A stretch of 64,000 nucleotides of DNA. Origin: Solwaraspora sp. WMMD406 (GTDB lineage Bacteria; Actinomycetota; Actinomycetes; Mycobacteriales; Micromonosporaceae). The position numbers and the translations under genes are program-made. The DNA lies in NCBI RefSeq assembly GCF_029626025.1, contig NZ_JARUBF010000001.1, positions 6,914,001 through 6,978,000 of the forward strand, written 5' to 3'. The notes below the pieces were generated by a model. That model did not search any database and was not told where the DNA came from. It worked only from the letters and a program-made list of their open reading frames with translations. Positions within the stretch are counted from its first letter, which is position 1; each line of letters begins with the position of its first letter. Positions 17,090 through 63,993 of the stretch are shown here, piece by piece.

Positions 17090-17095
17090 GCGGGG

Positions 17096-17329: not shown

Positions 17330-17357
17330 CAGCGCTTGTCCTTCCAAGGGGTGGGGG

Positions 17358-18203
17358 TCAGGCGTCGGTGGTGCGTTTGCGGCTGGTGACCATGAGGGCG
17401 GCGGACGCCATGACCATGAGTCCGTCGACCGCGAGGGGGCCGATGGCGACGGTCAGCGGGTCTTCGCCGAAGTGGGCGAGCAGTCCGGACAGGTGTCGGT
17501 AGGACACGACGGCGGCGACCAGGGCGACCGGCAGTACGCCGACGACGCGGGCGAGGAACCACCAAAAGCCGTCGCCCCAGGTGATGCGGGTCAGGATCTC
17601 GACCGCGACGAACAGGGCGATGGGCCAGAACACGCTGATGGCGATGGCGAGCGGCGACGGGGACCAGTCGGCCGGGGCGGTCCATCCGTCCGGGACACCT
17701 GGCGGTGGTTTCGGCAGGTAGGTGTGGGCGACGTTCGCGGCGATCGACACCAGTCCGCCGAGGGTGACACCGACGTACGCCCAGACTCGGCCGGGGGCGG
17801 GTCGGCGTCGACGCGGCCCGCCGTCAGCAGGCATGGTTGCCGTGGTGGGGGTGATCTCCGGAACTGGTTCTACGGCAACCGTGGGCAGCGGCAACAGCGG
17901 CGGCGGGGTGTCGACGGCGGGAACCAGCGGGGCCGGGGTGATGCCGACGTCGGGCGTGGTGTCCGGGTCCGGTCCCGGCTCGCCGGGGGTGGTGTCGACG
18001 GCCGGTGGTGCCGGGTCGGCGGCAGGCGGGGCGAAGTCGGCGCGCAAGCTGTCCAGGATCACGCCGGCCTTGCGGTGACCCACCCGCAGTTCGGTCTTGA
18101 TGCGGTTCTGGGAGGGCAGCGTTCCGAGTCGGGCGGTAAGGTCTCGCGCGGCCGGCATCAGGTCGGACACAGCGGGCGGGTAAACACTCGGTGGAGCGGT
18201 CAT
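17358..18203 (-). CDS. DUF2637 membrane protein, Spd-type spread protein, 281 aa
   Basis: Residues 1-45 form a DNA-binding-like head (LPSQNRIKTELRVGHRKAGVIL). Residues ~50-130 are a Pro/Thr-rich linker, and ~135-275 hold four transmembrane helices. The DUF2637 hallmark VVSYRHLSGLLAHFGED with PLAVDGLMVMASAALM is present near the end. Proteins of this type act in spreading of the element between hyphal compartments after transfer (SpdB-like). The gene stands upstream of the membrane/NTase/tra genes on the same strand. A second DUF2637 protein occurs at 44357-45199 in this window. Confidence 0.85.
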   Translation of the reverse strand: MTAPPSVYPPAVSDLMPAARDLTARLGTLPSQNRIKTELRVGHRKAGVILDSLRADFAPPAADPAPPAVDTTPGEPGPDPDTTPDVGITPAPLVPAVDTPPPLLPLPTVAVEPVPEITPTTATMPADGGPRRRRPAPGRVWAYVGVTLGGLVSIAANVAHTYLPKPPPGVPDGWTAPADWSPSPLAIAISVFWPIALFVAVEILTRITWGDGFWWFLARVVGVLPVALVAAVVSYRHLSGLLAHFGEDPLTVAIGPLAVDGLMVMASAALMVTSRKRTTDA

Positions 18204-18227
18204 CAGGTACCTCCGATGCGGGTGTGG

Positions 18228-18566
18228 TCAGGCGGCGGCGAGGGCGGTCAGGGCGTCGGTGGTGTCGGTGTCGAGCGCGGTCGGCTGGGTGTGTTCGGTG
18301 GCGTGGGCGTAGATCTCCCAGCCGTGCCAGGTCGGGTAGGCGGACAGCGACCGGTAGGGCCGACCGCTGGTGAGGGTGCCGACGTGTTCGTGTCCGATCA
18401 GCTGGTCGGGGGTGTCCAGGCCGGCGGCGGTCAGCCAGGCCCGAAGATCGGCGATCGAGTCGAATTCGACGCTGAGCTTCCCGTCGCCCCGGTCGCGGAT
18501 GGTGTTCGGCTCGCCGGTCAGCAGCAACGCGGCCATGACCGCGCGGCGGGAGATTCGAGTGGTCAC
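18228..18566 (-). CDS. Hypothetical AICE protein, 112 aa
   Basis: Soluble, Thr- and Ala-rich protein with no recognised domain. The segment AVMAALLLTGEPNTIRDRG, then KLSVEFDSIADLRAWLTAAGL looks like a compact alpha/beta fold. Start chosen at GTG 18566 with GGAGG upstream; it overlaps the stop of the preceding zinc-binding gene by 4 bases. Homologous small genes are frequent in actinomycete integrative elements. Role unknown. Confidence 0.65.
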   Translation of the reverse strand: MTTRISRRAVMAALLLTGEPNTIRDRGDGKLSVEFDSIADLRAWLTAAGLDTPDQLIGHEHVGTLTSGRPYRSLSAYPTWHGWEIYAHATEHTQPTALDTDTTDALTALAAA

Positions 18567-18937
18567 GCGGCAACCTCCGATGGGTAGGCGCAGTCGACGC
18601 ACTCGCCGAGGCTGCGCGGAATGCAGTAGGGCTTGACGTGGCGGCAGGTCGGGCAGGTCCGGCGGGCGGTCAGAGCGGCGGCGACGGCCCGCAACTGGGC
18701 GGGGGTGGCGGTACGCCGAGGGCGGGCCAGGTCGACCCGGTACAGGTAGGCGGTGCGGGTGCCGCCGACGCCGCGCCAGAGGATCTGACCGGCGACCGGC
18801 TGACGACCAGGCCGAAGGCCGGCCGCGCGTAGCTGCCGGCGGGTGGCGTAACCGGGCGGTGCGCCCTGCCACCACCAGGTAGGGATGCCGTACCGGGTGC
18901 CGTCCGGGTCCCAGTAGGCGGCGCGGATACGGGACAT
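18563..18937 (-). CDS. RRQRL-motif-type zinc-binding protein, 124 aa
   Basis: The N-terminal part carries YGIPTWWW and ATRRQLRAAGLRPGRQ, the signature of a family called RRQRL-motif zinc-binding proteins in actinomycete elements. The C-terminal part has four cysteines (CPTCRHVKPYCIPRSLGECVDC), a zinc site. Both gene borders overlap their neighbours, so it is part of the coupled unit. No biochemical role is known to me. Confidence 0.8.
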   Translation of the reverse strand: MSRIRAAYWDPDGTRYGIPTWWWQGAPPGYATRRQLRAAGLRPGRQPVAGQILWRGVGGTRTAYLYRVDLARPRRTATPAQLRAVAAALTARRTCPTCRHVKPYCIPRSLGECVDCAYPSEVAA

Positions 18938-19323
18938 CAGGCGGCGCGACGCGGGCCGGCGGTGCGGGGTGCACCGGGGCAGCCGTCGGCGGTGCGGTGG
19001 ATGACCTGCTCACCACCGCATTCGGGACAGCGCACGATCTCGCATCGATACACGCACCCGGTCCAGCCGACCACGGCCAACCGGTGCGGCACGCATCCGT
19101 CAGCGCTCCACGAGGGACGGGCCACCACCGCAGCGACACGGGTCAACCGGGCCTCAGCACGGCGGTGCCGTCGCCAGTCCAGATCGGTCGGGCCGCCGCT
19201 GTCAGCAGCGGCGAGCAGGGCAATCTCAGCGTCGAGCGCGTCCAGTTCGGCGGCGATCAGCGGCCATTCGGCTTCGATCGCCGCAAGGTCGACGTCGGTC
19301 GGGTCCAGGTCTTCGAGGTACAC
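18937..19323 (-). CDS. DUF6284-like protein, 128 aa
   Basis: The start region (YLEDLDPTDVDLAAIEAEWP) and the following acidic helix LIAAELDALDAEIALL match the small DUF6284 family. The C-terminal part has a Cys/His cluster (CEIVRCPECGGEQVIHRTADGC). Start chosen at GTG 19323, with GAAGGAA ten bases upstream; a longer frame to 19422 would run into the control region. It is the first gene of the long minus-strand AICE operon, so its promoter should lie in 19324-19768. Confidence 0.7.
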   Translation of the reverse strand: MYLEDLDPTDVDLAAIEAEWPLIAAELDALDAEIALLAAADSGGPTDLDWRRHRRAEARLTRVAAVVARPSWSADGCVPHRLAVVGWTGCVYRCEIVRCPECGGEQVIHRTADGCPGAPRTAGPRRAA

Positions 19324-43270: not shown

Positions 43271-43355
43271 GGAGGATTCGCCTAGAGGCCTAGGGCGCAC
43301 GCTTGGAAAGCGTGTTGGGTTCACACCCTCACGAGTTCGAATCTCGTATCCTCCG
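43271..43355 (+). tRNA. tRNA-Ser (anticodon GGA)
   Basis: An 85-nt class II tRNA. The acceptor stem pairs GGAGGAT with ATCCTCC; the anticodon stem CACGC/GCGTG encloses TTGGAAA, giving GGA. A long variable arm (GTTGGGTTCACACCCTC) and a TTCGAAT T-loop are present. CCA is not encoded. It is divergent from the SRP RNA gene. Confidence 0.97.
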
Positions 43356-43379
43356 CTCTCTGCAGAGCAGCCACGACGA

Positions 43380-43409
43380 CAGGGCCGGCCCCACCGGGGA
43401 CCGGCCCTG
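43380..43409 (+). terminator. Terminator after tRNA-Ser
   Basis: An inverted repeat with arms CAGGGCCGG and CCGGCCCTG, and an inner CCC/GGG, 25 bases after the tRNA, followed by ATT. It faces a convergent minus-strand gene. Confidence 0.8.
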
Positions 43410-43456: not shown

Positions 43457-43906
43457 TCAGCCTGTCCCAGCTGGTTCCACCTGGGCCTGCGGGTCAGCCG
43501 ACGGCGACGCCTCGATCACCACTTCAGGCGATGCGGAGGCTGGCACGGGGGGCGCCACGGGCGGCGCGGAGCCCTCGATCGGCGGAGTGTCCAGCGCGGG
43601 TGTGGGCGTGGGTGCCGGGCTCGGAGTCGGGCTCGGGACGGGTGGCGGCTCCGGCGAGACGATGGGTGACGAGTGGCCTGGATCGATCGGAGCCGGCTGC
43701 TGGCTGGATGACGACGCGCTGACCACACCGATGCCCAACGTCACGACCACGAGTACGGCCAGCCCGCTGCCGGCCGTCGCGGCGATCCGACGGCGACGGC
43801 GTGCCCGCCGGCCGGCCGCGATCATGGCGTACGGGGTCAGCTGGTGCGGTGGCGCGCCGGTCGCCCTGATCTCGGCAAACGCCGAAGTCAAGTCGGACTC
43901 GTTCAC
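43457..43906 (-). CDS. Membrane protein paired with a SigE-family sigma factor, putative anti-sigma partner, 149 aa
   Basis: An N-terminal cytoplasmic part (NESDLTSAFAEIRATGAPP), an Arg-rich stop-transfer patch (AAGRRARRRRR), one membrane helix (~42-62, GSGLAVLVVVTLGIGVVSA) and a Pro/Ser/Thr-rich outer tail. Genes of this type directly follow SigE-family ECF sigma genes and may act as anti-sigma or sensor proteins. Here the start codon GTG 43906 overlaps the stop codon of a sigma-factor remnant (43903-44004), so the partner is lost and the gene may be orphaned. The tail is low-complexity. Confidence 0.7.
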   Translation of the reverse strand: MNESDLTSAFAEIRATGAPPHQLTPYAMIAAGRRARRRRRIAATAGSGLAVLVVVTLGIGVVSASSSSQQPAPIDPGHSSPIVSPEPPPVPSPTPSPAPTPTPALDTPPIEGSAPPVAPPVPASASPEVVIEASPSADPQAQVEPAGTG

Positions 43907-44004
43907 CGGTCTCGCCCCCCTATCGCCACGTCGTCGGGCAGAAGTTCGCGCATCCGTTGCAGGCCACGGGCGCATTGGCTCTTCACGGTAGTCAGTGAGC
44001 GTAA
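43903..44004 (-). pseudogene. C-terminal remnant of a SigE-family ECF sigma factor
   Basis: The frame reads LTTVKSQCARGLQRMRELLP before the stop, matching the end of sigma region 4 (the TVKSQ recognition helix and the last helix). Upstream of this only unrelated sequence and a stop codon (44026-44028) occur, so regions 2 and most of 4 are missing. The break lies near 44005, where the DUF2637 gene pair begins on the other strand. An insertion or deletion removed the 5' part of the sigma gene. Confidence 0.7.
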
Positions 44005-44369
44005 GAAGCCAGAAGAATCTGGGATCTACCGAAACCGGTCCTGACCAGCGGCATCCTGCCTGGTGCGACCGCACCCGATGCACAGCTGATGCGGCTGCGC
44101 TGTCCGGCAAGGGCTACCGCCCCGGTGCCGCAGGGCGGCACCGGTCGGCACCGGTCCGTCTCGATCTGACCACAGCGATAGCCCTCGCGCCGCAGGCCGG
44201 GGAGGCGTATCTGACGCAGGCTCTCGCCCCGTGGCCCTGCGAGACCTATCTCCACATCCAGCACGGTGACAGCGACATCGCGATGACGGTGAGGAACGCG
44301 TCGCCGTTGTTGTCCGCGCTGCGGCTGCTCACGACCGAAGCCGAGGCCGAAAGTGGGTGGTCGTGGTGA
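43995..44369 (+). CDS. Hypothetical protein upstream of a DUF2637 gene, 124 aa or shorter
   Basis: From ~residue 20 the sequence (HPAWCDRTRCTADAAALSG, then PVRLDLTTAIALAPQAGEAY) looks like a small Cys-containing protein often found in front of DUF2637 genes in Micromonospora relatives. The first ~15 residues lie within the sigma-factor remnant on the other strand, so the natural start was probably lost or replaced at the junction; GTG 43995 is only the first available codon. The 3' end overlaps the DUF2637 gene by 13 bases. Function unknown. Confidence 0.55.
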   Translation: MSVRSQKNLGSTETGPDQRHPAWCDRTRCTADAAALSGKGYRPGAAGRHRSAPVRLDLTTAIALAPQAGEAYLTQALAPWPCETYLHIQHGDSDIAMTVRNASPLLSALRLLTTEAEAESGWSW

Positions 44370-45199
44370 GGAGCCGTACGGATCGAATCCTGACGGCCGT
44401 GACCGTGGTGTGTGTCGCGGGGCTGGCCGTCGTCGCGGGAACGATCTCGTTCGCGCACATGCACGAGCTGGCGACCGAGCACGACCAGCACGGATGGAAG
44501 GCGTTCGCGTTCCCGATCAGCGTCGACGGGCTGGAGATCGTCGCCGCTCTGTACATGGTGGTGCAGCGTCGCGCGGGACGGCGGACGGGATGGTTGCCGT
44601 GGATCGCCTTGGTGGTCGGCACCGCCGCGAGCCTGGCCGCGAACATCGCGGTCGGCGGTGAAAGCGTGATCGGCAAGATCCTGGCCGGCTGGCCCGCGCT
44701 GTCGATGCTCATCGCAGTGAAGCTGCTGTTCAGCATGATCGACCACGGCGAGAAGGATCAGCGGACCGTCCCGGACGATCAGCGGACGTCCGCCGGCCGT
44801 CCCGCCGCGCCGGGGACGGTCCCACCAGTCTCCTCGGACACCAGACCGCCGTCGGTGCCGACACCGGACAAGCCTGCCGCTCTCTCCGACGTGCCCCCGA
44901 GCGGCGAGATACATGAGTCCGCGAAACTGACCGCAGGACAGTCGGAGGACTTGGCCCCCAACCTTGTCCCGACCGACTCACGCGCCGTCGCCCACCTACT
45001 TCCGGACGCACGGGCCGCCTACACGGCGTTAACGATCAAGGGCCGTGCGGTGTCGCGGGACAAACTGGCCGAGGCGATGCGCGACGACGGGCACGGGGTG
45101 TCCAACGAACGCGCATCGCTGCTACTGCGGATCATCAGAGCCGAGCAGGAAGTCTCCGTCACCTCGCCTGCTGGGGCGGGAGAACGGACCCAACGATGA
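44357..45199 (+). CDS. DUF2637 membrane protein, 280 aa
   Basis: Four membrane helices lie in the first ~130 residues. The DUF2637 hallmarks are AGTISFAHMHELATEHDQHG and AFPISVDGLEIVAALYMVVQ. A long Pro/Ser/Asp linker is followed by a small helical C-terminal domain (LTIKGRAVSRDKLAEAMRDD, then VSNERASLLLRIIRAEQEV) resembling a winged helix. The same family occurs in the AICE as a spread protein with the domains in the opposite order. The gene pair here may be a relic of a second element near tRNA-Ser. Start GTG 44357, with an alternative at 44366. Confidence 0.8.
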   Translation: MVVVRSRTDRILTAVTVVCVAGLAVVAGTISFAHMHELATEHDQHGWKAFAFPISVDGLEIVAALYMVVQRRAGRRTGWLPWIALVVGTAASLAANIAVGGESVIGKILAGWPALSMLIAVKLLFSMIDHGEKDQRTVPDDQRTSAGRPAAPGTVPPVSSDTRPPSVPTPDKPAALSDVPPSGEIHESAKLTAGQSEDLAPNLVPTDSRAVAHLLPDARAAYTALTIKGRAVSRDKLAEAMRDDGHGVSNERASLLLRIIRAEQEVSVTSPAGAGERTQR

Positions 45200-53161: not shown

Positions 53162-53791
53162 ATGCAACTCGCTGACGACTTCTGGAGGCTGGCGCACCAC
53201 GACGTGACCGGGAAACCGCGCCTGAACGAACGTGCGGCAGGGCTCGGCCTGGCAGCAGCACTCCTGGGCGAGTTGCTGTGGATCGGGAGGATCAATGTTC
53301 GCGACGGACGCCTGTGGGTGGTCGACAAAACTCCCCCGGATGATGTCCTCGAACACACCGTGTTGGAGCAGATCATCGCTCAGCCCCAGCACGGCACGAT
53401 CGGGATCTGGCTCGACTTCCTCGCTCACGATGCGGCCCAGCTCGTCGCTCAGCGACTGTGGCGTGCCGGTCACCTTCGCCGTGAGACCAGCCGCCGGCTG
53501 CTGAGGTCGGACGAGGTCCGCTGGGTACCGGTCGACTGGAACGTAGCGCACTGGCCCACCGCGCGGCTGTCGATCTACCTGCGGGATCGAGCCCAGATGA
53601 GTACGACAGACGCTTTCCTCGCCGGCCTGGTCGCCACGACGGGCCTCGATGAAGGTCTGCTGCGCACAGCGCCGGCCGCCAGCCACGACTACCTCCGGCA
53701 CCTGGTCGCCACCGCACCACCGCCCGTGCATGAGCTCCTCACATACACACACATCGCCATAGGGCAATCGGTGCTGTCGTACCGCACCTGA
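53162..53791 (+). CDS. GPP34 (GOLPH3-like) family protein, 209 aa
   Basis: Helical protein of the GPP34 family. Motifs: LADDFWRLAHHDVTGKPRLN at the start, GLGLAAALLGELLWIGRINV, and the central RLWRAGHLRRET. Eukaryotic members bind phosphatidylinositol 4-phosphate at the Golgi; bacterial members are widespread in actinomycetes and their role is mostly unknown. Start ATG 53162. It is followed 50 bases later by the permease gene and may share its promoter. Confidence 0.85.
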   Translation: MQLADDFWRLAHHDVTGKPRLNERAAGLGLAAALLGELLWIGRINVRDGRLWVVDKTPPDDVLEHTVLEQIIAQPQHGTIGIWLDFLAHDAAQLVAQRLWRAGHLRRETSRRLLRSDEVRWVPVDWNVAHWPTARLSIYLRDRAQMSTTDAFLAGLVATTGLDEGLLRTAPAASHDYLRHLVATAPPPVHELLTYTHIAIGQSVLSYRT

Positions 53792-53840: not shown

Positions 53841-55367
53841 ATGCCCCTGTCCCCCGCGCCTACCCGCACCAGCCCGGTCACGGCCACCCTCGCGGCTGAC
53901 CGGCTCGGAGTCGCGGCGGTCGTCTTCTTCGTCATGTCCGCCGCTACCCCGCTCACCGTCGTCGCGGGTGTTATCACCACCGGATACGCGACGACCGGCC
54001 TCACCGGTATCCCACTCGCCTTCGTGCTCGTGGGGCTTCTGCTCGGGCTCTTCTCAGTCGGCTACGTGACCATGGCCCGCCACACCGCCAACGCCGGAGC
54101 TTTCTACTCCTACATCGCCCAAGGCATCGGCCGGCCGGCCGGAGTCGGTGCCGCCTGGGTCGCGCTGCTCGCCTACAACGCACTCCAGGTCGGCCTCTAC
54201 GGTGCCATCGGCGCGGCAGCCCAACCGCTACTGCACCAATGGTTCGGCGTCACGCCCCCGTGGTGGTGCATCGCTCTCATCGCATGGGCGATCACCGCTG
54301 GCCTCGGTCTGCGGCGAATCGACGTCAACGGCAAGGTCCTCGCCGTACTCCTCCTGGCCGAAGTCGCCATCATCGCGATCTACAGCCTGAGTAGTCTCGC
54401 AAGCCCTGCCGACGGCCGAATTGCCCTGGACACCCTCGCTCCCGGCAACCTGTTCGGCCCCGGCATCGGCGCGGTACTCGTCCTGGCAGTGCTCGGTTTC
54501 GTCGGCTTCGAAGCCGCCGTCGTGTTCTCCGAAGAGTCCCGGGACCCGCATCGCACCGTCCGGACCGCCACCTACCTGTCCGTCGCGCTCATCGCCGGCC
54601 TCTACGCCCTGTCGGCCTGGGCGATGACCGTCGCTACCGGGCCCGGACGGATCGTGGAGGTTTCCAGGAACGAAGGAACCGAGGTCATTTTCAACCTCGC
54701 CGCCGCGAACCTCGGCCGGACGATGGTCGACATCGGCCACGCCCTCTTCGTGACCAGCATCCTGGCGGCGATGATCGCCTTCCACAACACCACCGCCCGC
54801 TACATGTTCGCTCTCGGCCGCGAACGAGTCCTGCCCGCAACGCTCGGCCGCGCATCCCGGCGCAGCGGCGCGCCCCGCGCTGCCTCCCTCTGGCAGAGTG
54901 GCATCGGCCTGACCGTGATCGTCACCTTCGCGATCGCCGGTTGGGACCCGCTCATCCAGCTCTTCTTCTGGGCCGGAACCTCGGGCGGGCTCGGCATCCT
55001 GTTCCTCATCACCGCCACCAGCGTCGCCGTCATCGCCTTCTTCAACCAGCACCCCCACGGTGAGACGGCATGGCGTCGCCTGGTCGCGCCAGCCTCCGCC
55101 GCCATCGCCCTGGGAATCGTCGTCTGCCTGGCCGTGGCCAACTTCGCTGCCCTCCTGGGAGTGCCAGGCAATCATCCCCTCGCCATTGCGGTCCCCATCG
55201 GCTACGTGGTCGCCGCAGTCCTTGGCGCCGCTTGGGGGCTGATCCTGCAACGAGCCCGGCCCGACGTGTACGCCGCGATCGGGCTCGGTGCCCGAAGCAC
55301 CACAGCCACCAGCCCTCTCACCCAAGCGGACGACTACACCCGCGTTGGTCGGGAGACCTGGCGATGA
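53841..55367 (+). CDS. APC-family amino-acid/amine permease, 508 aa
   Basis: Integral membrane transporter with about twelve helices. Family signs are the unwound first helix VMSAATPLTVVAGVITTGYA and FYSYIAQGIGRPAGVGAAWV. VLGFVGFEAAVVFSEESRDP, with the conserved Glu, is also present. Substrates of the family are amino acids, amines or related small molecules; the exact one is not readable. Start chosen at ATG 53841 with ACGGAGG upstream; a TTG at 53820 is less likely. It overlaps the acetyltransferase gene by 4 bases and heads the ten-gene coupled operon. Confidence 0.9.
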   Translation: MPLSPAPTRTSPVTATLAADRLGVAAVVFFVMSAATPLTVVAGVITTGYATTGLTGIPLAFVLVGLLLGLFSVGYVTMARHTANAGAFYSYIAQGIGRPAGVGAAWVALLAYNALQVGLYGAIGAAAQPLLHQWFGVTPPWWCIALIAWAITAGLGLRRIDVNGKVLAVLLLAEVAIIAIYSLSSLASPADGRIALDTLAPGNLFGPGIGAVLVLAVLGFVGFEAAVVFSEESRDPHRTVRTATYLSVALIAGLYALSAWAMTVATGPGRIVEVSRNEGTEVIFNLAAANLGRTMVDIGHALFVTSILAAMIAFHNTTARYMFALGRERVLPATLGRASRRSGAPRAASLWQSGIGLTVIVTFAIAGWDPLIQLFFWAGTSGGLGILFLITATSVAVIAFFNQHPHGETAWRRLVAPASAAIALGIVVCLAVANFAALLGVPGNHPLAIAVPIGYVVAAVLGAAWGLILQRARPDVYAAIGLGARSTTATSPLTQADDYTRVGRETWR

Positions 55368-56026
55368 CCAAGCCCTCATCAATCAGCAAGCCCACCTACC
55401 GAGACGCCGGACCGATCGCCGAACTCATCGCCGAGGCATTCCAGCCACTTGACCAGGTCGCCTGGCTCGTACCCGACCCTGAGCGACGGCGCGAAGTCCT
55501 GGCAGCGAACTTCCGCATCCTCGTGGAACACGCGCTCTTCTTCGGCGAAGTCGACCTCATGCACGACCGCAGCGCGGTCGCCGTCTGGTTTAACCGAACC
55601 CGAACCGTGCCGCCTCCGGTCGACTACGAACGCCGGCTCGCCGACGCCTGCCATCCGTACACCGACAGATTCCAACTCCTCGACAAGCTCTTCGACGCCC
55701 ACCACCCCACGGAACCCCACCATCACCTGGCGTTCCTCGCCGTCTCGCCGAACAAGCAGTGCGCCGGCCGTGGTACAGCCCTGCTCAACCACCACCATGC
55801 CCAGCTCGACCACATCGGACTACCCGCCTATTTGGAGGCCAGCAGCAGCGGCAGCCGCGACCTCTACGCGCGGCACGGGTACCAGCAGCGGGACCAGTTC
55901 CACCTACCTGACGGAAGCGCCTTCTACCCGATGTGGCGACCGGCCGAATCGTCGGCCACGAACGCCAGCCGACATCCGACCCAACTTCCTGGCCCGGGGC
56001 ATTCCAGCGTCCAGGGAGCCACATGA
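55364..56026 (+). CDS. GNAT-family N-acetyltransferase, 220 aa
   Basis: Acetyl-CoA-dependent transferase fold. The CoA-binding strand-loop is HLAFLAVSPNKQCAGRGTAL (~124-143), with the family Q/RxxGxG/A pattern as KQCAGRG. The C-terminal YLEASSSGSRDLYARHGYQQ completes the fold. The N-terminal half includes WLVPDPERRREVLAANFRIL. The target could be an amine on the pathway molecule. ATG 55364 overlaps the permease stop and the stop overlaps the next gene's start, so translation is coupled on both sides. Confidence 0.88.
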   Translation: MTKPSSISKPTYRDAGPIAELIAEAFQPLDQVAWLVPDPERRREVLAANFRILVEHALFFGEVDLMHDRSAVAVWFNRTRTVPPPVDYERRLADACHPYTDRFQLLDKLFDAHHPTEPHHHLAFLAVSPNKQCAGRGTALLNHHHAQLDHIGLPAYLEASSSGSRDLYARHGYQQRDQFHLPDGSAFYPMWRPAESSATNASRHPTQLPGPGHSSVQGAT

Positions 56027-56247
56027 ATCCTGCCGCCACCACCATGTCGTCTGGACCCGCCGAGGAGAGCGGATCGAGGCTCTCCGTAGACGCCCACGAG
56101 CGCTTCGCTGATCAGGTAGAGCGGATCTGCGCCACCCATGTTGCCCTTGGTGACGGATCCTGTGCCGGGTGCCTCACCTTCTGGCACCGGTGGGTACCTC
56201 ACCCGTGCACGCAGGCGGAGTGGGCAGCTGCGAACCGAAAGAGATGA
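56023..56247 (+). CDS. Small Cys/His protein, 74 aa
   Basis: Encodes CATHVALGDGSCAGCLTFWH with a further Cys in PHPCTQAEW: four Cys and several His that could bind zinc. The N-terminal third is Ser/Ala-rich. ATG 56023 and the stop at 56247 overlap both neighbours by 4 bases, which argues for a real gene. No family known to me. Confidence 0.7.
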   Translation: MNPAATTMSSGPAEESGSRLSVDAHERFADQVERICATHVALGDGSCAGCLTFWHRWVPHPCTQAEWAAANRKR

Positions 56248-56843
56248 CCGGCCTTGGAGGTCCCGCGTCCATGTCCATCCACACCACGGCAAGCCCGCCG
56301 GTCCCGTCGACCAACCCAGAACCTTGCTTGGCATTGCCCACATCGAGTCTGATTCTCGATGTATTCCGAGGCCGGCCTGCCGACGTGCATCCGGCCCTGG
56401 CGGTTCCCCTAGGCGCTGCAACCCAGATGGTCGTTCACCATGGCGACCAGTGGGCTGCGGAGATGGTCTCCCGTGACGCAGCCGCAGACGATCACGTCGT
56501 GGCTGCGGCGAAGAGGACGATCGACGTCCTCAACGGACTCCGCGTGAACCTGATCGGCCAGATCGATTCGTGGGTCGAGGGTGTTGTACACGTCGGCGAG
56601 GAGGTACCGCTACACACCGAGACCGTTGGCTCCGTCATTGATCGACTGGCTATCGCCTGGGTGCGTTGGAAACGTCTGGACAGCAATGACCGGCGGGAAA
56701 GCCTCGTGGTTGCTCCATCGCCGGCTCTCCGGCAACTGACCGAACTCGCTGCCGCCTACGACAACCTCGTCCTCGACGTGCACGAAGGAAGGCGACGGCT
56801 CCCGAATTGGCGTTCACTCAAGAGCTACCGGGAGCGCCGATGA
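56244..56843 (+). CDS. DUF4254 protein, 199 aa
   Basis: Helical protein with the DUF4254 core: HHGDQWAAEMVSRDAAADDH, VAAAKRTIDVLNGLRVNLIG and LHTETVGSVIDRLAIAWVRW. The function is not established. In Gram-negative bacteria DUF4254 genes often lie beside heptosyltransferase-like genes of surface glycan synthesis, and a GT9-like gene is also found three genes downstream here. That recurring link suggests a role in glycosyl transfer or handling. Both ends overlap neighbours by 4 bases. Confidence 0.8.
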   Translation: MTGLGGPASMSIHTTASPPVPSTNPEPCLALPTSSLILDVFRGRPADVHPALAVPLGAATQMVVHHGDQWAAEMVSRDAAADDHVVAAAKRTIDVLNGLRVNLIGQIDSWVEGVVHVGEEVPLHTETVGSVIDRLAIAWVRWKRLDSNDRRESLVVAPSPALRQLTELAAAYDNLVLDVHEGRRRLPNWRSLKSYRERR

Positions 56844-58753
56844 ACATCGCCGTGACCCTCAATGGGGCAGACAACGTCGGCAAGACCACCAACGCACGCT
56901 GGCTGGCATCTGCGATACCGGGCGTGCGCTTCACCGGGACGATCGACAGATGGGACCAGCGCTGGGCCCTCGTGTCACAGGGCGACTTCGGCCAATGGTG
57001 GTTCATCGACAGCACCACGGCCGAACACGTAGACCTCGTGTTCAGTTCCCACCTCGCGCGGGCCCAGGGCGGAGGGCCACTGGCGCTGGAGGACCGAGGC
57101 TGGCCAATGCTCATAGCGACGTGCGCCGCAACCGCAGCGGTCAAGGACGGGATGCCCGCCGCCGACGCCCTGGCGGGGGTGGAGGCCATCGCGGGCGGTT
57201 ACGCCGTTTCGCGCCGACGGGAACTGCATCTCCTGCTGCGTCACGCCGACCAGCCAGCCGCAGAGGCTAGGCATGCTCTCGCCCGAGAACGAGCTCCCGC
57301 CACCGACAGATACGCCGAGTACCAGCAACGATTGGCCGAAGTCATCGAAATCCAGGTCGGCCGCGGAGACTACCAAGCGGTCATCGTGCGTGGCCACCGG
57401 CCGCTACTTGATGTTCAACGTCATATCCGCGAACAGCTGGCACAACTTGACGTACCGGTTACCCTTCTTCCGCGCGACGAGGTTGAGCGGCTCTGGATCC
57501 TCGCAGGCATGTCCGAGAGCGGCAAAAGCACCGTCGGCGAACTACTCCGCACCGAGCACGCGGTGACCCGGCTGAAGATCGGTTACCTTCTTCAACTCGC
57601 CGCCGAGCGGTTCAGAGTGGACGACCCGTACCAGGTATGGGACGAGACCACCCAAGCGCAGATACTCTCGGAGGAGATCCTGCGCTTCGCCGCGCAGAAT
57701 CCCGGATCTCGCCGTGTCAGCGTGGAGAGCGCCCATCGCTTTGACTCTACGGCGCATCTGCGGCGGATCTGGGGCGATCGTTGCGAGGTCGTATACCTCG
57801 ACGCGCCGAGTGAGATCCGGATGCGGCGTACCAGCGAACCGGACGCGTCGGTGCGGGAGCGCGACACCATCAAACAGAGCCGTGGCGCGGATGACATCGT
57901 GTCGATCGCGGACACGGTGATCGACAACCGTGGCAGTCTTGCTGCCTTGAAGCGGGCTGTGACGGAGGTGGTGAGTCGACACTCGGAGGTCCTGGTTCCG
58001 CCGCAGCCAGACGCGGTAGTACCGGCGTCTCTGCAGCCGGTCCTCGCGGACTGCACCGCCGATCTGGTTGATTCCCAGACAGCTCTGGTAGCCGTGACGG
58101 GCAGCCTCGCCTACAACGGCTGGCAGCAAGGGTGGAGCGACATCGACCTGCTCGTCGTTCGTGACACGCTGCCGCTGGACTGGCTCAGAAACCGGTCTGT
58201 ACCCGATCACGGTCCAGCCGGCGAAAAGATCGCTTTGTCCGCGTTCACGACACACGAGGTCCGCACCGGCCAACTGCCACCACGGCTGGTGCACGCCCTA
58301 CGCCAGATCGCACGCGACGGCAGCGGCCTGCTCTACCGCCGTGACGGTCTCGCGGTCAACGCTCCGGCCCCGGACGTCGACGATCGCGCGGCCCGCGCCG
58401 ATTTACCGCTTGTCGTCATGGTGCTCCGCCGGCTGGCAGCCAAGCCCGCCTTCGACGTCCGCGCCGTCTACAAGCACATCGTCTTGATCATGAAGACCAT
58501 CCTGCGGGCGGACGGGGTCGACGCCGACTCCAGCGACGACGTCCGGCGCGCCTTCGTCGCCAACCACCCGACCGCCGCGATCGACCTCCCGACCCTGACC
58601 GGCGTCAGCAACCGAAGTTGGCGCCAGGACGAAACCTTCGCCCACCGCGTCCGTGACGCCGCCGCCGACATCCTGCGCTACCACGACACGATTGGCCACC
58701 AGCTGACCATCCGCCCAACGCCCTGCACTCGGAAGGATCCAGACGCGCGATGA
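56840..58753 (+). CDS. Trifunctional fusion: two P-loop kinase-like domains and a nucleotidyltransferase, 637 aa
   Basis: Domain 1 (~1-195) has a P-loop GADNVGKT (9-16) and a layout like thymidylate or nucleoside kinases (GTIDRWDQRW, LALEDRGWPMLIA). Domain 2 (~215-385) has a second P-loop GMSESGKSTVGELL (223-236), VYLDAPSEIRMRR and a LID-like segment, resembling dephospho-CoA or adenylate kinases. Domain 3 (~400-637) has the polymerase-beta signature GSLAYNGWQQGWSDIDLLVV with Gly421-Ser422 and Asp434/Asp436, followed by a helical region. The fusion suggests phosphorylation and nucleotidyl transfer to one small molecule. ATG 56840 and the stop overlap both neighbours by 4 bases. I do not know a characterised protein of this architecture. 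Confidence 0.82.
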   Translation: MNIAVTLNGADNVGKTTNARWLASAIPGVRFTGTIDRWDQRWALVSQGDFGQWWFIDSTTAEHVDLVFSSHLARAQGGGPLALEDRGWPMLIATCAATAAVKDGMPAADALAGVEAIAGGYAVSRRRELHLLLRHADQPAAEARHALARERAPATDRYAEYQQRLAEVIEIQVGRGDYQAVIVRGHRPLLDVQRHIREQLAQLDVPVTLLPRDEVERLWILAGMSESGKSTVGELLRTEHAVTRLKIGYLLQLAAERFRVDDPYQVWDETTQAQILSEEILRFAAQNPGSRRVSVESAHRFDSTAHLRRIWGDRCEVVYLDAPSEIRMRRTSEPDASVRERDTIKQSRGADDIVSIADTVIDNRGSLAALKRAVTEVVSRHSEVLVPPQPDAVVPASLQPVLADCTADLVDSQTALVAVTGSLAYNGWQQGWSDIDLLVVRDTLPLDWLRNRSVPDHGPAGEKIALSAFTTHEVRTGQLPPRLVHALRQIARDGSGLLYRRDGLAVNAPAPDVDDRAARADLPLVVMVLRRLAAKPAFDVRAVYKHIVLIMKTILRADGVDADSSDDVRRAFVANHPTAAIDLPTLTGVSNRSWRQDETFAHRVRDAAADILRYHDTIGHQLTIRPTPCTRKDPDAR

Positions 58754-59304
58754 CCACCACCTACGACGAGGTCCTCAACGCCGATCGCATCACTCGGCTG
58801 GGTGTCGGAGACACCACCCGCCCGCTCCGCGTCGTGCACGGGCTCGACGGGATCCGAACCGAGGTGTCGGCGGATCAGGTCCTGGCCGCCGGCCACAGCC
58901 TGTGGCAACTCTGGCAGGAGCACCCCGCCTACCAGCCGCATGACCTCCTGCTCGGACTGGACGCAGGCGGCATCGTTCCGACGATCGGGCTCGCCTGGGC
59001 CAGCCGAAGCCAGTACCGCCTGGCCTGGAAAGTCAACCTCGACCTGCCCGACAAGCTCGTCTTCCACGAGCCACACGCTCGACGGCTGGAAGTGTTCGCC
59101 TACGGCGACTTCCAGGGCCAGCGGGTCCTCATAGTCGACGACGAGATCACGACCGGACTCACCCTGACCAATCTCGTCGGCGCTCTCCGTGACGCCGGAG
59201 CTGACATCGTCGGCGCACTCTGCCTCGTCGAGGACACGACCGGAGGCGGGCGACACCTCCTCGAACGCAACGAGGTCCCGCTATGCGCGTTGACCACCCT
59301 ATAG
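58750..59304 (+). CDS. Type I phosphoribosyltransferase, 184 aa
   Basis: The PRPP-binding motif VLIVDDEITTGLTLTNLV lies at ~127-144, and the preceding strand LLLGLDAGGIVPTIGLA supplies the pyrophosphate loop. Such enzymes attach ribose 5-phosphate to a base, or split nucleotides. The base is unknown. ATG 58750 overlaps the previous stop by 4 bases. The 3' end overlaps the glycosyltransferase gene by 22 bases. Confidence 0.88.
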   Translation: MTTTYDEVLNADRITRLGVGDTTRPLRVVHGLDGIRTEVSADQVLAAGHSLWQLWQEHPAYQPHDLLLGLDAGGIVPTIGLAWASRSQYRLAWKVNLDLPDKLVFHEPHARRLEVFAYGDFQGQRVLIVDDEITTGLTLTNLVGALRDAGADIVGALCLVEDTTGGGRHLLERNEVPLCALTTL

Positions 59305-60377
59305 GCGTCGGCGTCGGACCGATCCTCCAGAACGGCGGTCCGACACTCGTACCACGCGAACAGGCTCCGCTCGGTCGGCTCCTCCCGTACCGCCGGGCCA
59401 GAGGGCAGCATCCGGCCCCACAGCCAGCGAGCGACGCGGTACGCCAAAACGGCTGGCGCGTCGACTTTGGCTCACGAGGCCTGGGTGACCTGCTGCTCGG
59501 CCTCGGCATGGCGCAAGCTCTCCACGACGCCACCCGCGAGCAGTTCACCCGTCTGGAGTACCGCGGCGCCCGAGCAGAGTTGATCTCGCGCTGCACCCTG
59601 CCGGTCACCACCACGCCCGGAAGCGGCCATCAACTGGGCACCACCATCAGCGGCAGCGCCCCTGCCTTCAGCGCCATACCGGAGACCCCTCCGACGCTGC
59701 TCGACCTCGTCGATGCAGACGTCGTCCAGGTCCACGCGGCGCTGCCGATGCGCTACTACCTCGACATCGAACAAACCCTCGGCGTACGGCTGCCTGCTGA
59801 GGCCGACCCGTGCCCACGGTTCCGTTCGGCGGTACCCGTACCGGAGCCTCTCCACGTGGTGTTCGTCTCCACGACCAGCCGTCCGGATCGTAAGGACTAC
59901 GGAATCGACAACTTCAGCGCTATCGCCCAACTCCTGGTCGCCCGCCACCCCGGCACCTGGCGGTTCACCCTCGTCGCACCGCCGGGTCAACCGCCGCCGG
60001 CTCCCTCCACACACATCAGGGTTGTGCCCGGCCTACCGGCAGCGGACTGTATCGACCTGTTCGCCACCGCCGAACTCGTCGTCGGCAACGACACCGGCTT
60101 GACCCACCTCGCCGCCCTCACGTCGCGACCGGACGGCAGCGGGCCACAGGTCGTCGGCCTCTACGGACGACACGGCCACGCCAAGTGGATCACCGGCTCG
60201 TCAGCCCATCACGCGGTCGCTACCCCCTTCTCCCACCTGATGTCGATCGCCGACGCCTGCCCCGTACGTGACGGCTACGACGACACAATCTGGTCCGCCG
60301 CGAGCAACCTACGCGCTCTGCCCGCCGACGTGATAGCTGACTTCGCGGGCCAATGCGCTGGCTGGTGGCCTCAATGA
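59283..60377 (+). CDS. GT9/heptosyltransferase-like glycosyltransferase, 364 aa
   Basis: The C-terminal Rossmann domain carries the donor-binding motif AELVVGNDTGLTHLAAL (~263-279) typical of ADP-heptose:LPS transferases (GT-B fold, family 9). SRGLGDLLLGLGMAQAL in the N-terminal half matches the GxGD loop that opens such enzymes. The first ~55 residues overlap the phosphoribosyltransferase gene and look less conserved, so the true start could be later. Actinomycetes lack LPS, so the sugar donor and acceptor must differ. Followed by a 4-base overlap with the kinase gene. Confidence 0.82.
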   Translation: MRVDHPIGVGVGPILQNGGPTLVPREQAPLGRLLPYRRARGQHPAPQPASDAVRQNGWRVDFGSRGLGDLLLGLGMAQALHDATREQFTRLEYRGARAELISRCTLPVTTTPGSGHQLGTTISGSAPAFSAIPETPPTLLDLVDADVVQVHAALPMRYYLDIEQTLGVRLPAEADPCPRFRSAVPVPEPLHVVFVSTTSRPDRKDYGIDNFSAIAQLLVARHPGTWRFTLVAPPGQPPPAPSTHIRVVPGLPAADCIDLFATAELVVGNDTGLTHLAALTSRPDGSGPQVVGLYGRHGHAKWITGSSAHHAVATPFSHLMSIADACPVRDGYDDTIWSAASNLRALPADVIADFAGQCAGWWPQ

Positions 60378-61507
60378 TCCGCATAGGCCGCTACCGGCGG
60401 TTCACCGCGAACCGTACGCTGCACCTCGACATCGGTGGACGCCGGCTCTTCGTCAAGATCAATCCGAACGTCGCAGAGGCAGCAGCCGAAGCCACGGGCT
60501 ATCAGCGGATCCGCGACCACTACCGGTTGCCGCACCTGCATGCACATCGCAGGATCGGTCGATGGACCGTCAGCCTGTATCAACGCCACCAACCGGACCT
60601 GCCTGACACCGGACTGCTTCTTGACGCCCTCACCGCCTACGACGCCGGCGAGGCATCCCGCCTCCACCACCGCCTCGACGCGATCTTCCAGCACTACAAC
60701 CTGACCATCGGCGCGACGATCCAACGAACTCCCGCCTCCGACACGATCAGCAAGCTCTACCGCGACCGGACCCGGCCCGGCGGCAGACTCGATCAGTACT
60801 ACGGCGACAACCCGATCCTGTTCAAGCTCGGTGTCAACGATGGCATCCGATGCACGGACCTACGCGAGACAACCCTCGTGGTCAACGGCCAACCCCAACG
60901 GCTGGACTTCTACGCCATCCTCGCCGGGCTCCGCGCAGATTTAGACGCAGGTGGACCCGTATGGGCGGCAATCACCCAAGGCGACCCCACCGATTTCAAC
61001 ATCGGCCTCGACACCTCGGACCGACCCGTCTGGTTCGACTACGACACCGGCGGACTCAACGCGCTACCGGGCGAGGTCGCCTGCTTCCTCTGGTACCAGC
61101 GGCTACACGGAGCCTGGCTTGTCCCGCGCTACAACCCGGAAGCCTTCGCTGATCACAGAAAGTCACTCACGGACGCCGCCGAACCCCGGGTGCGACTCAA
61201 GAGACTCTCCCCCCGAAGCGTCGCGATCGACTACCGGCACCGACCCTCAGCACCCCGGCGAACGGCGATCGCCCGGTACCTCACGCAAATCGCCAGGCCG
61301 CTCGCCGCCAGTACAGGCACTGACCTGCTCACCTGGTTACGTCCCTACCTCGCCATGCGCATTCTCGCCGTCTACCCCGTACATCGCCTCGAACCCCGCG
61401 ACGCAGCGCTGTCGCTGGGTTTGCTCGCCGAGCTCTACTCGCGAGACACCAACCTGGAACATCTACTCGGCCTTCCCGACCAGCCGTCAGCGGAGACCGT
61501 CGCATGA
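60374..61507 (+). CDS. APH-fold kinase-like protein, 377 aa
   Basis: Phosphotransferase-like protein. The catalytic loop is WAAITQGDPTDFNIGL (~196-211; Asp and Asn of the GDxxxxN motif, with Gln replacing the usual His), and the metal-binding motif is VWFDYDTGGLNALPGE (~217-232). The N-terminal lobe has LHLDIGGRRLFVKINP with the candidate ATP-binding Lys. The C-terminal ~120 residues are helical and Arg-rich. ATG 60374 overlaps the glycosyltransferase stop by 4 bases; an in-frame ATG at 60353 is less likely. Confidence 0.77.
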   Translation: MIRIGRYRRFTANRTLHLDIGGRRLFVKINPNVAEAAAEATGYQRIRDHYRLPHLHAHRRIGRWTVSLYQRHQPDLPDTGLLLDALTAYDAGEASRLHHRLDAIFQHYNLTIGATIQRTPASDTISKLYRDRTRPGGRLDQYYGDNPILFKLGVNDGIRCTDLRETTLVVNGQPQRLDFYAILAGLRADLDAGGPVWAAITQGDPTDFNIGLDTSDRPVWFDYDTGGLNALPGEVACFLWYQRLHGAWLVPRYNPEAFADHRKSLTDAAEPRVRLKRLSPRSVAIDYRHRPSAPRRTAIARYLTQIARPLAASTGTDLLTWLRPYLAMRILAVYPVHRLEPRDAALSLGLLAELYSRDTNLEHLLGLPDQPSAETVA

Positions 61508-62250
61508 ATCGCCCAATCGCCATCGTCACCGGTGCCGGAGGCGGCATCGGAGCCGCTATCGCGACCCGCCTCGCCGCCGACTTCGACCTCGTACTTACCC
61601 ATCAGCACGACGACAGCGACCTCGCGGCTGCCGCCGACGCCGCCCGCCGTCACGGAGCGCAGATCGACACCATCACCGGGGACCTGACCCTCCCCAACAC
61701 GCAGGGCGCCCTGCGCGCAGCAATCGAGGTCCGCGCCGCACGGACGGTAGCCCTCATCAGCAACGCCGGAGCATACCCACGCATCCCCTGGCATCGGACG
61801 GACCCGAGTACGCTTCGCGGCCAGCTCGAACTCAACCTTGTCACCCACGCCGCCGCTATCCACGCCGCAACGCCCGGAATGATCGCCAACGGATACGGAC
61901 GCGTCGTCGCCATCTCATCGGTGCTGACCCAGATCGGCCGCGTAGACCTCGCCGGCTACATCGCCGCGAAGAGCGGACTGGAAGGACTCGTCCGCGCCCT
62001 CGCCCGAGAACTCGGTCCACACAACATCACCATCAACACCGTACGGCCCGGCTCGATCGAGGTTCCTGCCGAGCGCACCGTGGTTCCCGACCACGCCGCT
62101 ATGGTCAGACGACAGCTCGATCGCCAGTGCATCAAACGTCGTGGCCAGCCTTCGGACATCGCCGCAGCCGTCGCGTTCCTGGTATCGCCCGCTGCGGGAT
62201 TCATCACCGGTCAAGCAGTGAATGTCGACGGCGGGTGGGACCTGTCGTGA
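61504..62250 (+). CDS. SDR-family oxidoreductase, 248 aa
   Basis: Classical short-chain dehydrogenase. Cofactor-binding TGAGGGIG (~9-16), the NAG motif in ALISNAGAYPR, catalytic Ser138/Ser139 in AISSVL, Tyr152 and Lys156 in GYIAAKSG, and an ending GQAVNVDGGWDLS close to the FabG type. It oxidises or reduces a hydroxyl or keto group with NAD(P). It overlaps both neighbours by 4 bases. Confidence 0.93.
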   Translation: MNRPIAIVTGAGGGIGAAIATRLAADFDLVLTHQHDDSDLAAAADAARRHGAQIDTITGDLTLPNTQGALRAAIEVRAARTVALISNAGAYPRIPWHRTDPSTLRGQLELNLVTHAAAIHAATPGMIANGYGRVVAISSVLTQIGRVDLAGYIAAKSGLEGLVRALARELGPHNITINTVRPGSIEVPAERTVVPDHAAMVRRQLDRQCIKRRGQPSDIAAAVAFLVSPAAGFITGQAVNVDGGWDLS

Positions 62251-62867
62251 CATACGCGGTTCTCTGGATACGCCACGGCACCAGCCTCGATGGAGCACTC
62301 CGGCCCACCGCTCACGCCCGCCCAGACACCCCACTCGCTCCGCACGGCGTCACCCAGATCGCCGCCACCGCACGCCACCTGCAAGCCAAGGGAATCCAGC
62401 CAGCCATCGTGCTGACCAGCCCACACCCCCGAGCGGCTGGAAGCGCCGCGATCCTTGCCGAACTGCTCGGTGCACCACTGGCCCCACCGGATCCGATCTA
62501 TGCCGAATGGCGCGCCCCCGACTGCGTCCTCGGCATCACCCCCGACGACTACCCGCCTGAGTACCGAAGGTGGCGAACGACCCGACTGAACGACCCAGAC
62601 TCGGCGCTACCCGGCGGCGAAAGCCTGACAGCCTTCCGCGACCGCGCGACGCACGCATCATCCGCCCACCAACGATTCGCGGCCACTGGAGTCACGTTGA
62701 TTGTGTCTCACCGGGTGCTGATCGGTGCTGTTGCAGCGATCAGCACCGGCCTCCACAGCCCTGCCGATGTCTTCCGACAAGCGTGTGCCTTTCCGCTTGA
62801 TCCGGCACAGGTCTGGCGACCACACAGCATCACGCAGAAATCAAGGCCTCCGCATTTGAAACGATGA
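62247..62867 (+). CDS. Histidine phosphatase (phosphoglycerate-mutase fold), 206 aa
   Basis: The catalytic LWIRHGTS motif (~7-14) provides the phosphohistidine. TSPHPRAAGSAAILAELLG with the second Arg, the Glu in YAEWRAPDC, and VSHRVLIGAV with the second His complete the site. The enzyme removes a phosphate from a small molecule, fitting a last trimming step of the pathway. GTG 62247 overlaps the SDR stop by 4 bases. The 3' end overlaps the convergent NUDIX gene by 38 bases. Last gene of the operon. Confidence 0.9.
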   Translation: MTYAVLWIRHGTSLDGALRPTAHARPDTPLAPHGVTQIAATARHLQAKGIQPAIVLTSPHPRAAGSAAILAELLGAPLAPPDPIYAEWRAPDCVLGITPDDYPPEYRRWRTTRLNDPDSALPGGESLTAFRDRATHASSAHQRFAATGVTLIVSHRVLIGAVAAISTGLHSPADVFRQACAFPLDPAQVWRPHSITQKSRPPHLKR

Positions 62868-63270
62868 AGTCCTTGAGCGCAGCCGGTTTCAGATCAACGT
62901 CAGGGATCCGATCGACGGGCACCCGGTCAAGCAGATAACCGCCACGGGATTGATCAGAAAACTCTGGCCCGCTGCGCTGATTTTCGTCCAACCGCGTCAG
63001 GCGACACGAGAAAAAGTGCTGAACTGACACGCCCTCACCTGCAGGTGAACTGAACAGGAACACCTGGCTGAACTGTTCTGCTTCAGCGCCCAATTCTTCG
63101 CGCAGCTCGCGGCGCAACGCAGTTTCTAGCGAGGAATCTGTTGACTCGAGGCCACCGCCGGGTGCAGTCCAATAGGGCTCCTGACCAGGTTTAATTCGCT
63201 TGATCAGAACCACTTGGTCGTGCTCATCAAGAAGGATCGCCCGCACAGACCTACGCACGATCTCACGCAT
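62830..63270 (-). CDS. NUDIX hydrolase, 146 aa
   Basis: Nucleotide-diphosphate-linked hydrolase. The Nudix box is TAPGGGLESTDSSLETAL followed by RRELREELGAE; the REXXEE catalytic core is complete, while the first Glu of the box is replaced by Ser or Asp. Substrates range from NTPs to nucleotide sugars. Start ATG 63270 with GGGGTCGGG upstream. It is convergent with the operon and overlaps its last gene by 38 bases, so the two transcripts are antisense at their ends. A role with the operon is possible but only positional. Confidence 0.87.
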   Translation of the reverse strand: MREIVRRSVRAILLDEHDQVVLIKRIKPGQEPYWTAPGGGLESTDSSLETALRRELREELGAEAEQFSQVFLFSSPAGEGVSVQHFFSCRLTRLDENQRSGPEFSDQSRGGYLLDRVPVDRIPDVDLKPAALKDFIVSNAEALISA

Positions 63271-63591
63271 CCCGACCCCAATCGCAAACCACCACAGGCG
63301 AACTAAAGTTACACCGGGCGACGCCCGCGCACAAACTGCCTTCGGACGCGCTCTCCGGACGTCACCGAACAGTCCGAAGCCGGTTCCGGTCGACAAGCGC
63401 ACGCAACACGGGTGTCGGCCCTCCCGGGGCTGCTGGTTACCCGTGAGCGTCGAGTCGCAGTGGCTGGCGGCGAGCTCAGGTGGTCGCGACCACAACGGGC
63501 CGAGCCCTGACGGACAGGTCCACGGGACAGATCGTCGACCGGCCCGCCGACATGACGCCGCAGGTACGTGCGCGTGAGGCTCTGCCAGCGG
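63271..63591. other. Gene-free stretch between the NUDIX gene and the next minus-strand gene
   Basis: About 320 bases. No frame with a recognisable domain or ribosome site. It should hold the NUDIX promoter near 63300 (ACTTTAGTTC-like AT-richer segment on the minus strand). No hairpin recognised. Confidence 0.45.
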
Positions 63592-63993
63592 TCACGGTTG
63601 TGCCGCGAAGGCGTCGCGAACCTGAACCTGGTTTGCCGTCCACCAGTGCAGGAACGTCTCACCGGAGAAGAACAGGTGGTCACAGGAGTGGTCGCCTCGG
63701 TCGTAATGGAGCACCAGATGCCAGAAGTCCGAGGCCCGCTTCCACCATAGACGGTCCCCCGGCACATCCTCCTTCGGCACCGGAGACGCCAGCGGCGGGG
63801 CCGGGGCCGGGGCCGTGTCGGATGGTGTGGGCTCGCTCGGTGGCTCGTCGGAGGACATCGCGGCGATCGCCGGCACCGCGAAGGCCAGCGCGACCGCTAC
63901 CCCCAGCAGCGCGAACACGACAGGCTTTTCGACAACGTGACCTCCTTGGCGGTCGGACCGGCGGTTGCCGGTCCCTTTCCACCTGTTCCCCAC
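63592..63993 (-). CDS. Membrane-anchored or secreted protein, up to 133 aa
   Basis: A hydrophobic helix (VVFALLGVAVALAFAVPAIA) is followed by a Pro/Ser/Thr-rich spacer and a folded C-terminal part with many aromatic residues (LWWKRASDFWHLVLHYDRGD, FFSGETFLHWWTANQ) and one Cys. No family recognised. The start is uncertain: GTG 63993 is the first available codon, but the best ribosome site (AAGGAGG at 63941-63947) lies further in and points to a start near 63933, where only non-standard codons occur in frame. Confidence 0.65.
   Translation of the reverse strand: MGNRWKGTGNRRSDRQGGHVVEKPVVFALLGVAVALAFAVPAIAAMSSDEPPSEPTPSDTAPAPAPPLASPVPKEDVPGDRLWWKRASDFWHLVLHYDRGDHSCDHLFFSGETFLHWWTANQVQVRDAFAAQP

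Follow-up and report, generated by a model that had tools for sequence, protein, structure and literature searches.

A putative biosynthetic operon for a nucleoside- or nucleotide-sugar-type small molecule in a genomic island of Solwaraspora sp. WMMD406

We analyzed a 64,000-nucleotide stretch of the genome of the actinomycete Solwaraspora sp. WMMD406 (contig NZ_JARUBF010000001.1, positions 6,914,001 to 6,978,000; hereafter, the window), with a focus on a compact array of overlapping genes, denoted A to J, and the adjacent gene K. The natural unit within this array is a block of eight genes, D, E, F, G, H, I, J and K, with borders at window positions 56244 and 63270. This block is probably a horizontally exchanged biosynthetic operon whose product would be a phosphorylated compound, either nucleoside-type or nucleotide-sugar-type. 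No characterized pathway with this gene set was found in the open-access literature searched, in line with the original prediction for this locus, so that, as far as these searches reach, the operon class is undescribed. None of the genes in the block is a hallmark of the usual biosynthetic classes, and tools keyed to such hallmarks would be expected to miss it.

Gene content and conservation of the block

With the fusion protein E as anchor, a search for related loci gave matches in 20 of 160 Micromonospora genomes, full length in 11 and short and weak in nine. All 11 loci with full-length E carry D, E, F, G, H, I and J in one order, with convergent K behind J; in one of them (L111), the match to gene F is split into two pieces, perhaps by a frameshift or an assembly error. 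Beyond Micromonospora, the block was detected in four genomes (L058–L060 and L062). The locus from another family of the same order (L062) has the full block, with E 50% identical, whereas in three loci from two further families (L058, L059 and L060) the block is rearranged, with the order K, the first P-loop domain of E (P-loop1), a fusion of D with the second P-loop domain (P-loop2) and the nucleotidyltransferase (NTase) domain, then F, G, H, I and J. Thus, D to J and K co-occur in four families (f1, f7, f31 and f33 in the numbering of the search), which bears out the co-occurrence expected with the fusion as the anchor. Tailoring genes vary by locus: a TauD-type dioxygenase gene abuts K in L060, and a TylF-like methyltransferase gene lies between J and K in L062. 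Beside the full block, L062 also contains conjugation-like genes, recognized by eye (L062:48-6446), and a gene of the F420-0 gamma-glutamyl ligase family, assigned with Pfam (L062:6825-7574).

No match to E was found in six other genomes of the genus of the window. In a class-wide sample, 13 of 394 genomes had a match, strong in five (G000, G634, G821, G922 and G944), limited to an N-terminal fragment in one (G740), and weak and partial in seven. A profile of H matched 5 of 388 genomes, the same five strong carriers of E, and none of the other 383; the five matched proteins are rows of the profile itself, which leaves the lack of matches in other genomes as the informative result. Each of the eight genes in the block is under purifying selection, with ratios of nonsynonymous to synonymous substitution rates (dN/dS) of 0.12–0.40 in two genome pairs; the corresponding value for gene B, in one pair, is 0.42. 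E had no tblastn match in 50,697 phage records, and a phage origin of the block was rejected on this ground.

Gene D (56244-56843, plus strand) encodes a DUF4254 protein (Pfam PF14063, 90.9 bits against a cut-off of 27), a stand-alone gene in the window. A profile search of the Protein Data Bank (PDB) with D gave chance-level matches only (best E-value 0.071). DUF4254 had matches in three of the 198 genomes of a phylum sample, two of which carry the block, and no match on plasmids. The third genome (G319; L067-L072 and L075-L077) has six matches, five of them over the cut-off; no operon like the block was seen in three DUF4254 neighborhoods read by eye.

Gene E (56840-58753, plus strand) encodes a 637-amino-acid fusion of P-loop1, P-loop2 and the NTase domain; the Pfam models AAA_18 and NTP_transf_2 match it below their cut-offs. 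The closest relatives of P-loop2 are AdkA-like/UPF0200 proteins (E-value 6e-9), followed by APS and dephospho-CoA kinases. P-loop1 has a weak similarity to thymidylate kinase (E-value 0.01), and the best PDB profile match of the NTase domain, confined to the active-site region, is CdnD (E-value 0.0022), followed by another NTP_transf_2 protein and by an aminoglycoside nucleotidyltransferase at an E-value of 0.095. Conserved catalytic residues were found in the alignments of both P-loop domains, and the GS and DxD motifs of the NTase domain are invariant in all 12 aligned proteins. A Glu or Asp, located by eye, lies 37 residues past the second Asp; in the window protein it is E473, invariant in seven aligned proteins, which we take to occupy about the position of the catalytic Glu of AadA.

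Gene F (58750-59304, plus strand) encodes a type I phosphoribosyltransferase (PRTase) that exceeds its Pfam cut-off (33.0 vs. 26.3 bits), with the phosphoribosyl pyrophosphate-binding loop VDDE.TTG invariant in eight of eight proteins; PRTase_2 matches weakly, below its cut-off (22.7 vs. 28.8 bits), and the search of plasmids with F gave a single weak match, in Haloferax. Gene G (59283-60377, plus strand) belongs to the GT9 (heptosyltransferase-like) glycosyltransferase family (Glyco_transf_9, 38.6 bits against a cut-off of 22), and its motif GNDTGLTHLAA is invariant in eight of eight proteins. The product of gene H (60374-61507, plus strand) has no Pfam or NCBIfam match, the Pfam APH model included, and a PDB profile search returned nothing up to an E-value of 1. 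Nevertheless, H is read as an APH-like kinase because the residues of the catalytic and metal-binding motifs, QGD....N and the first D of DYD, are conserved (D204, N209 and D222, invariant in 11 of 11 proteins); Q replaces the usual H before GD.

Gene I (61504-62250, plus strand) encodes an SDR oxidoreductase with the tetrad Asn111, Ser139, Tyr152 and Lys156 invariant in the alignment, and gene J (62247-62867, plus strand) a branch 1 histidine phosphatase with R9, H10, R62, E87 and H155 invariant; both exceed their Pfam cut-offs. Gene K (62830-63270, minus strand) encodes a NUDIX hydrolase and is convergent to J, overlapping its 3' end by 38 bases. The NUDIX box (REUxEE) residues R54, E55, E58 and E59 are invariant in the alignment; in the window protein, the first Glu of the box appears, by eye, to be substituted.

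All ten plus-strand open reading frames, A to J, are free of internal stops on translation, and their nine junctions overlap by 4, 4, 4, 4, 4, 22, 4, 4 and 4 bases (ATGA at seven junctions, GTGA at one, and the single 22-base overlap). Translation and measurement of the junctions thus reproduce the predicted architecture of ten genes with eight 4-base overlaps and one 22-base overlap. In nearby chromosomal DNA, exact 4-base overlaps were found in 10 of 41 same-strand neighbor pairs, a small sample from a rough custom gene caller with imperfect start sites; against this background, at least eight of nine junctions at 4 bases has a probability of about 9e-5, so the overlaps are well above background. 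The 22-base overlap between F and G also occurs in L019–L024 and L062. In a promoter and terminator scan, counts were no higher than in shuffled sequence.

The fold names originally proposed held for the permease, DUF4254 protein, PRTase, GT9 transferase, SDR oxidoreductase and phosphatase, all over their Pfam cut-offs, and narrowly for the GNAT protein; they are weaker for the sub-cut-off fusion, the APH-like protein, identified through its motifs, and the small Cys protein. The predicted ten-gene unit persists in part: D to J belong together, A, B and C are accessory or local genes outside the conserved block, and the minus-strand gene K is an additional member absent from the earlier list.

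Kernel clusters, fusions and genomic setting

The unit has a smaller form as well, a kernel that lacks the PRTase, GT9, phosphatase and DUF4254 genes. Two loci (L057 and L025) contain E, H, I and K only; a third (L026) contains E, H and K, with E broken up by transposase-like genes, as judged by eye (L026:8984-12410). The kernel of E, H, I and K apparently can function by itself, and the genes D, F, G and J would then form an extension; among the intact clusters seen, D is present only together with F, G and J. Domain rearrangements and fusions tie the parts of the block together: besides the D–P-loop2–NTase fusion, a Streptomyces plasmid (L073) carries H followed by a fusion of I with K (SDR–NUDIX). 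These fusions suggest which steps of the pathway are neighbors.

More distant pieces were found on other plasmids. Two further Streptomyces plasmid loci contain a piece of E only (L038) and a piece of H only (L074). The Lactococcus plasmid p275D (L039:7041-10693) encodes a 709-amino-acid protein with about 20% identity to P-loop2–NTase in its C-terminal part and with an N-terminus that looks NUDIX-like by eye but has no Pfam match. The same plasmid locus also has a hexapeptide transferase and an APH-like gene split in two. Truncated DUF4254 genes and E remnants are present in three genomes (L061, L063 and L064); these remnants are signs of loss of the block.

The block resides in an island. 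The match of the window to each of six congeners ends at about 43400–43406, just past a tRNA-Ser (GGA) gene (43271-43356, plus strand) that serves as the left landmark, and stretches of the island DNA, partly in a different order, recur in all three congeners that were read further. In one of these (G004), window positions 43644–44391 are followed by approximately 300 bases and then by 63584–63761, and E is absent from the genome. In another (G002), shared DNA extends with gaps to about position 53383, is followed by 8.9 kb of other DNA, and resumes at window position 63590. The G002 slot (L118:2569-10172, minus strand) is occupied by an operon with GT8 and GT2-type glycosyltransferase genes, a thymidylate-kinase-like kinase, Gfo/Idh/MocA, APH, cupin, DegT/StrS aminotransferase and zinc-ADH genes, which by its families would be of aminosugar or aminocyclitol type. 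With the block in the window and this operon in G002, one slot carries alternative small-molecule operons. Neither a second copy of tRNA-Ser nor an attachment repeat was found in the 17 kb of sequence examined past the window; in two other congeners (G005 and G006), copies of the 3' part of tRNA-Ser are present downstream. Elsewhere in the window, minus-strand genes at 10318-19323, near a tRNA-Pro gene (7751-7827), resemble by eye an actinomycete integrative element (primase-like and FtsK-like).

Upstream of the block, and in part overlapping its first gene, lie the accessory genes. Position 53383 falls inside a GPP34 (Golgi phosphoprotein 3) family gene (53162-53791, plus strand; Pfam GPP34, 119.5 bits), 49 bases 5' of gene A (53841-55367, plus strand), which encodes an APC amino-acid permease family protein above the Pfam cut-off. 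Gene B (55364-56026, plus strand) encodes a GNAT family acetyltransferase, for which one model was narrowly over the Pfam cut-off (22.8 vs. 20.7) and two were under, and gene C (56023-56247, plus strand) encodes a small Cys protein of 74 amino acids with no Pfam match and no tblastn counterpart in the related loci examined. Seven of the 11 Micromonospora loci have an upstream cassette of GPP34, GNAT and APC permease genes, together with genes of the acetamidase/formamidase family and of the LigT type and a divergent regulator-like gene; their GNAT homolog, 5' of the block, is 40–48% identical to B. In the other four, the parts of the cassette that were searched gave no match.

Proposed pathway and alternative explanations

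The gene families suggest a route in which F would couple an acceptor to phosphoribosyl pyrophosphate, yielding a ribosyl-5'-phosphate compound; H and both P-loop domains of E would phosphorylate hydroxyl or phosphate groups; the NTase domain of E would activate or cap the intermediate with a nucleotide; I would oxidize or reduce a carbinol of the activated intermediate; K would cut the resulting pyrophosphate; G would attach a sugar; and J would take off the last phosphate. Taken together, the enzymes would assemble and trim phosphate esters and pyrophosphates. DUF4254 most likely serves the step of E or that of G because D is fused to P-loop2 of E in three loci and, in intact clusters, accompanies F, G and J; through its fusion to a kinase–nucleotidyltransferase, this family gains a testable role. 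The GNAT, GPP34 and permease proteins may function in transport, tailoring or self-protection. We infer that the product is probably phosphoribosylated and glycosylated, with the donor and the order of steps likewise tentative. Complete syntenic clusters exist in named Micromonospora species and are open to direct expression and metabolomics; the named carriers include M. orduensis, M. inaquosa and M. alfalfae.

More tentatively, the block could represent a new class of specialized-metabolite pathways that operate without a classical scaffold enzyme, a possibility to which we assign somewhat less than even chances. In such a class, the kernel of kinase/kinase/nucleotidyltransferase, APH kinase, SDR and NUDIX would produce a nucleotide-activated core, from which the DUF4254–PRTase–GT9–phosphatase extension would make a phosphoribosyl-derived, glycosylated product; cargo exchange would have carried the kernel across families of actinobacteria, and Lactococcus would hold a remote relative of it.

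Several observations weigh against a biosynthetic operon of this kind. A scaffold-building enzyme was not recognized in the block, and P-loop1 and the NTase domain of E resemble known families weakly. Because the kernel occurs without the PRTase, a phosphoribosyl step cannot be common to all clusters. Plasmid locus L073 holds H and the I–K fusion, with E undetected in the stretch read and unmatched on that plasmid; hence, E and H are not inseparable. Finally, several clusters adjoin restriction or other defense genes.

The last point bears on a different explanation, namely, that the operon makes an intracellular nucleotide-like anti-phage compound and hence travels in defense islands. Type I restriction enzymes are encoded near L019, L110, L059 and L060 (HsdM at L059, HsdR at L060 and L019), a PDC-S18 candidate and a pPIWI-RE protein lie near L058, the Lactococcus relative is located near cytosine methyltransferases and a TrlF ATPase, and CdnD is the best profile match of the NTase domain. 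However, the flanking proteins submitted to PADLOC were picked by eye, so proximity to defense genes is no measured enrichment, and HsdR genes were present in two of the 11 loci examined, one of which was the source of the query. Moreover, a nuclease or membrane effector was not recognized in the block, and the same slot in G002 holds a sugar-type operon. In a PADLOC scan of the ten proteins A to J, F alone matched, weakly, to PsyrT (E-value 0.0014 over 48 residues), and a known defense system was rejected on this result; small-molecule defense in general we regard as unlikely. Uptake followed by degradation or salvage, with the permease importing a compound that the enzymes dismantle, appears slightly less probable still. 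The APC permease of the window, and the permease and acetamidase/formamidase family genes 5' of the block in seven Micromonospora loci, would fit such a role, but these permeases are only 28–29% identical to that of the window, which is itself unmatched in the other four Micromonospora loci and in L057-L060 and L062, and kinases with a nucleotidyltransferase, a PRTase and a GT9 transferase typically perform building steps.

Equally improbable, in our estimate, is a pathway of the ADP-heptose type, in which the GT9 transferase would use host ADP-heptose to make a heptosylated product, as known for septacidin. The membership of G in the GT9 family agrees with this scheme, as does the heptose adenylyltransferase model TIGR02199, which exceeds its cut-off in seven of 13 carriers and falls slightly short of it in G922 (178.7 vs. 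181.5 bits). Of the 16 known carriers of the full block, however, 11 were tested, and among these G305 and G634 had no match and G821 reached only 71.9 bits; the lack of a match in G305 and G634 implies that the donor cannot depend on the host heptose pathway in all carriers, and host ADP-heptose was accordingly rejected as the obligatory donor. That unrelated metabolic genes came to share one operon here by chance is barely credible: the individual folds are common, but the order is kept over families, the genes are fused and under purifying selection, and H is unseen outside the carriers of E in the class sample. The biosynthetic operon is the reading we favor. The earlier proposal of one small-molecule pathway is thus partly supported: for the block, by the co-occurrence, the lack of a characterized counterpart in the searches made and the sugar-type operon in the same slot of a relative, but not for the accessory genes A, B and C.

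Comparison with known systems

Among the related sequences on plasmids, an operon of Bradyrhizobium japonicum plasmid p1S06B (L040:1-11552) likewise combines a relative of P-loop2 (29% identity) with a PRTase, a phosphoribosyl pyrophosphate synthetase and a nucleotidyltransferase. Unlike the block, it has a PEP-mutase-family gene, by which it looks like a phosphonate pathway, and no fusion protein or annotated SDR–NUDIX pair in the stretch read. NTP_transf_5, ribulose-phosphate epimerase, phytanoyl-CoA dioxygenase family and inositol-monophosphatase-family genes are present there as well.

Pathways of septacidin-type heptosylated adenine nucleosides provide a case of a GT9 transferase in the making of a nucleoside-type product; the block differs in that it lacks heptose genes, and the host heptose adenylyltransferase is unmatched in 2 of the 11 full-block carriers tested. 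The operon of the Ter-associated module, whose predicted product is a nucleoside-like metabolite, reportedly includes a PRTase. The block, too, has a PRTase, with the sub-cut-off PRTase_2 match described above, whereas no Ter protein or ATP-grasp ligase is among the Pfam matches of A to J.

With respect to genomic setting, the work on Synteruptor and sphydrofuran describes 'non-classical' metabolite clusters in islands that break synteny between close relatives (PMC11195616). The non-classical enzymes of the block similarly sit in a synteny-breaking island; the genes differ from those of sphydrofuran-type clusters, and the enzyme and compound terms searched for the block do not occur in the main text of that paper.

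The closest logic in the literature is that of the aminonucleoside pathways, puromycin and aminodeoxyguanosine (ADG), to which the block would be analogous without being a member. Compared with puromycin, an aminotransferase (Pur4) is not among the Pfam matches of A to J, the oxidoreductase of the block is an SDR, and the block adds the PRTase, GT9 transferase, APH-like kinase, two P-loop domains, NTase domain and DUF4254. In the accounts of puromycin and, as proposed, of ADG, the nucleotide is the substrate of a dehydrogenase; a NUDIX enzyme then removes two phosphates and a phosphatase the last one (PMC9239236, PMC11641026). Set against puromycin, A201A and ADG (Pur10, Pur4, the NUDIX enzyme Pur7 and the phosphatase Pur3), the block also combines an oxidoreductase, a NUDIX hydrolase and a phosphatase (I, K and J), a likeness at the level of fold.

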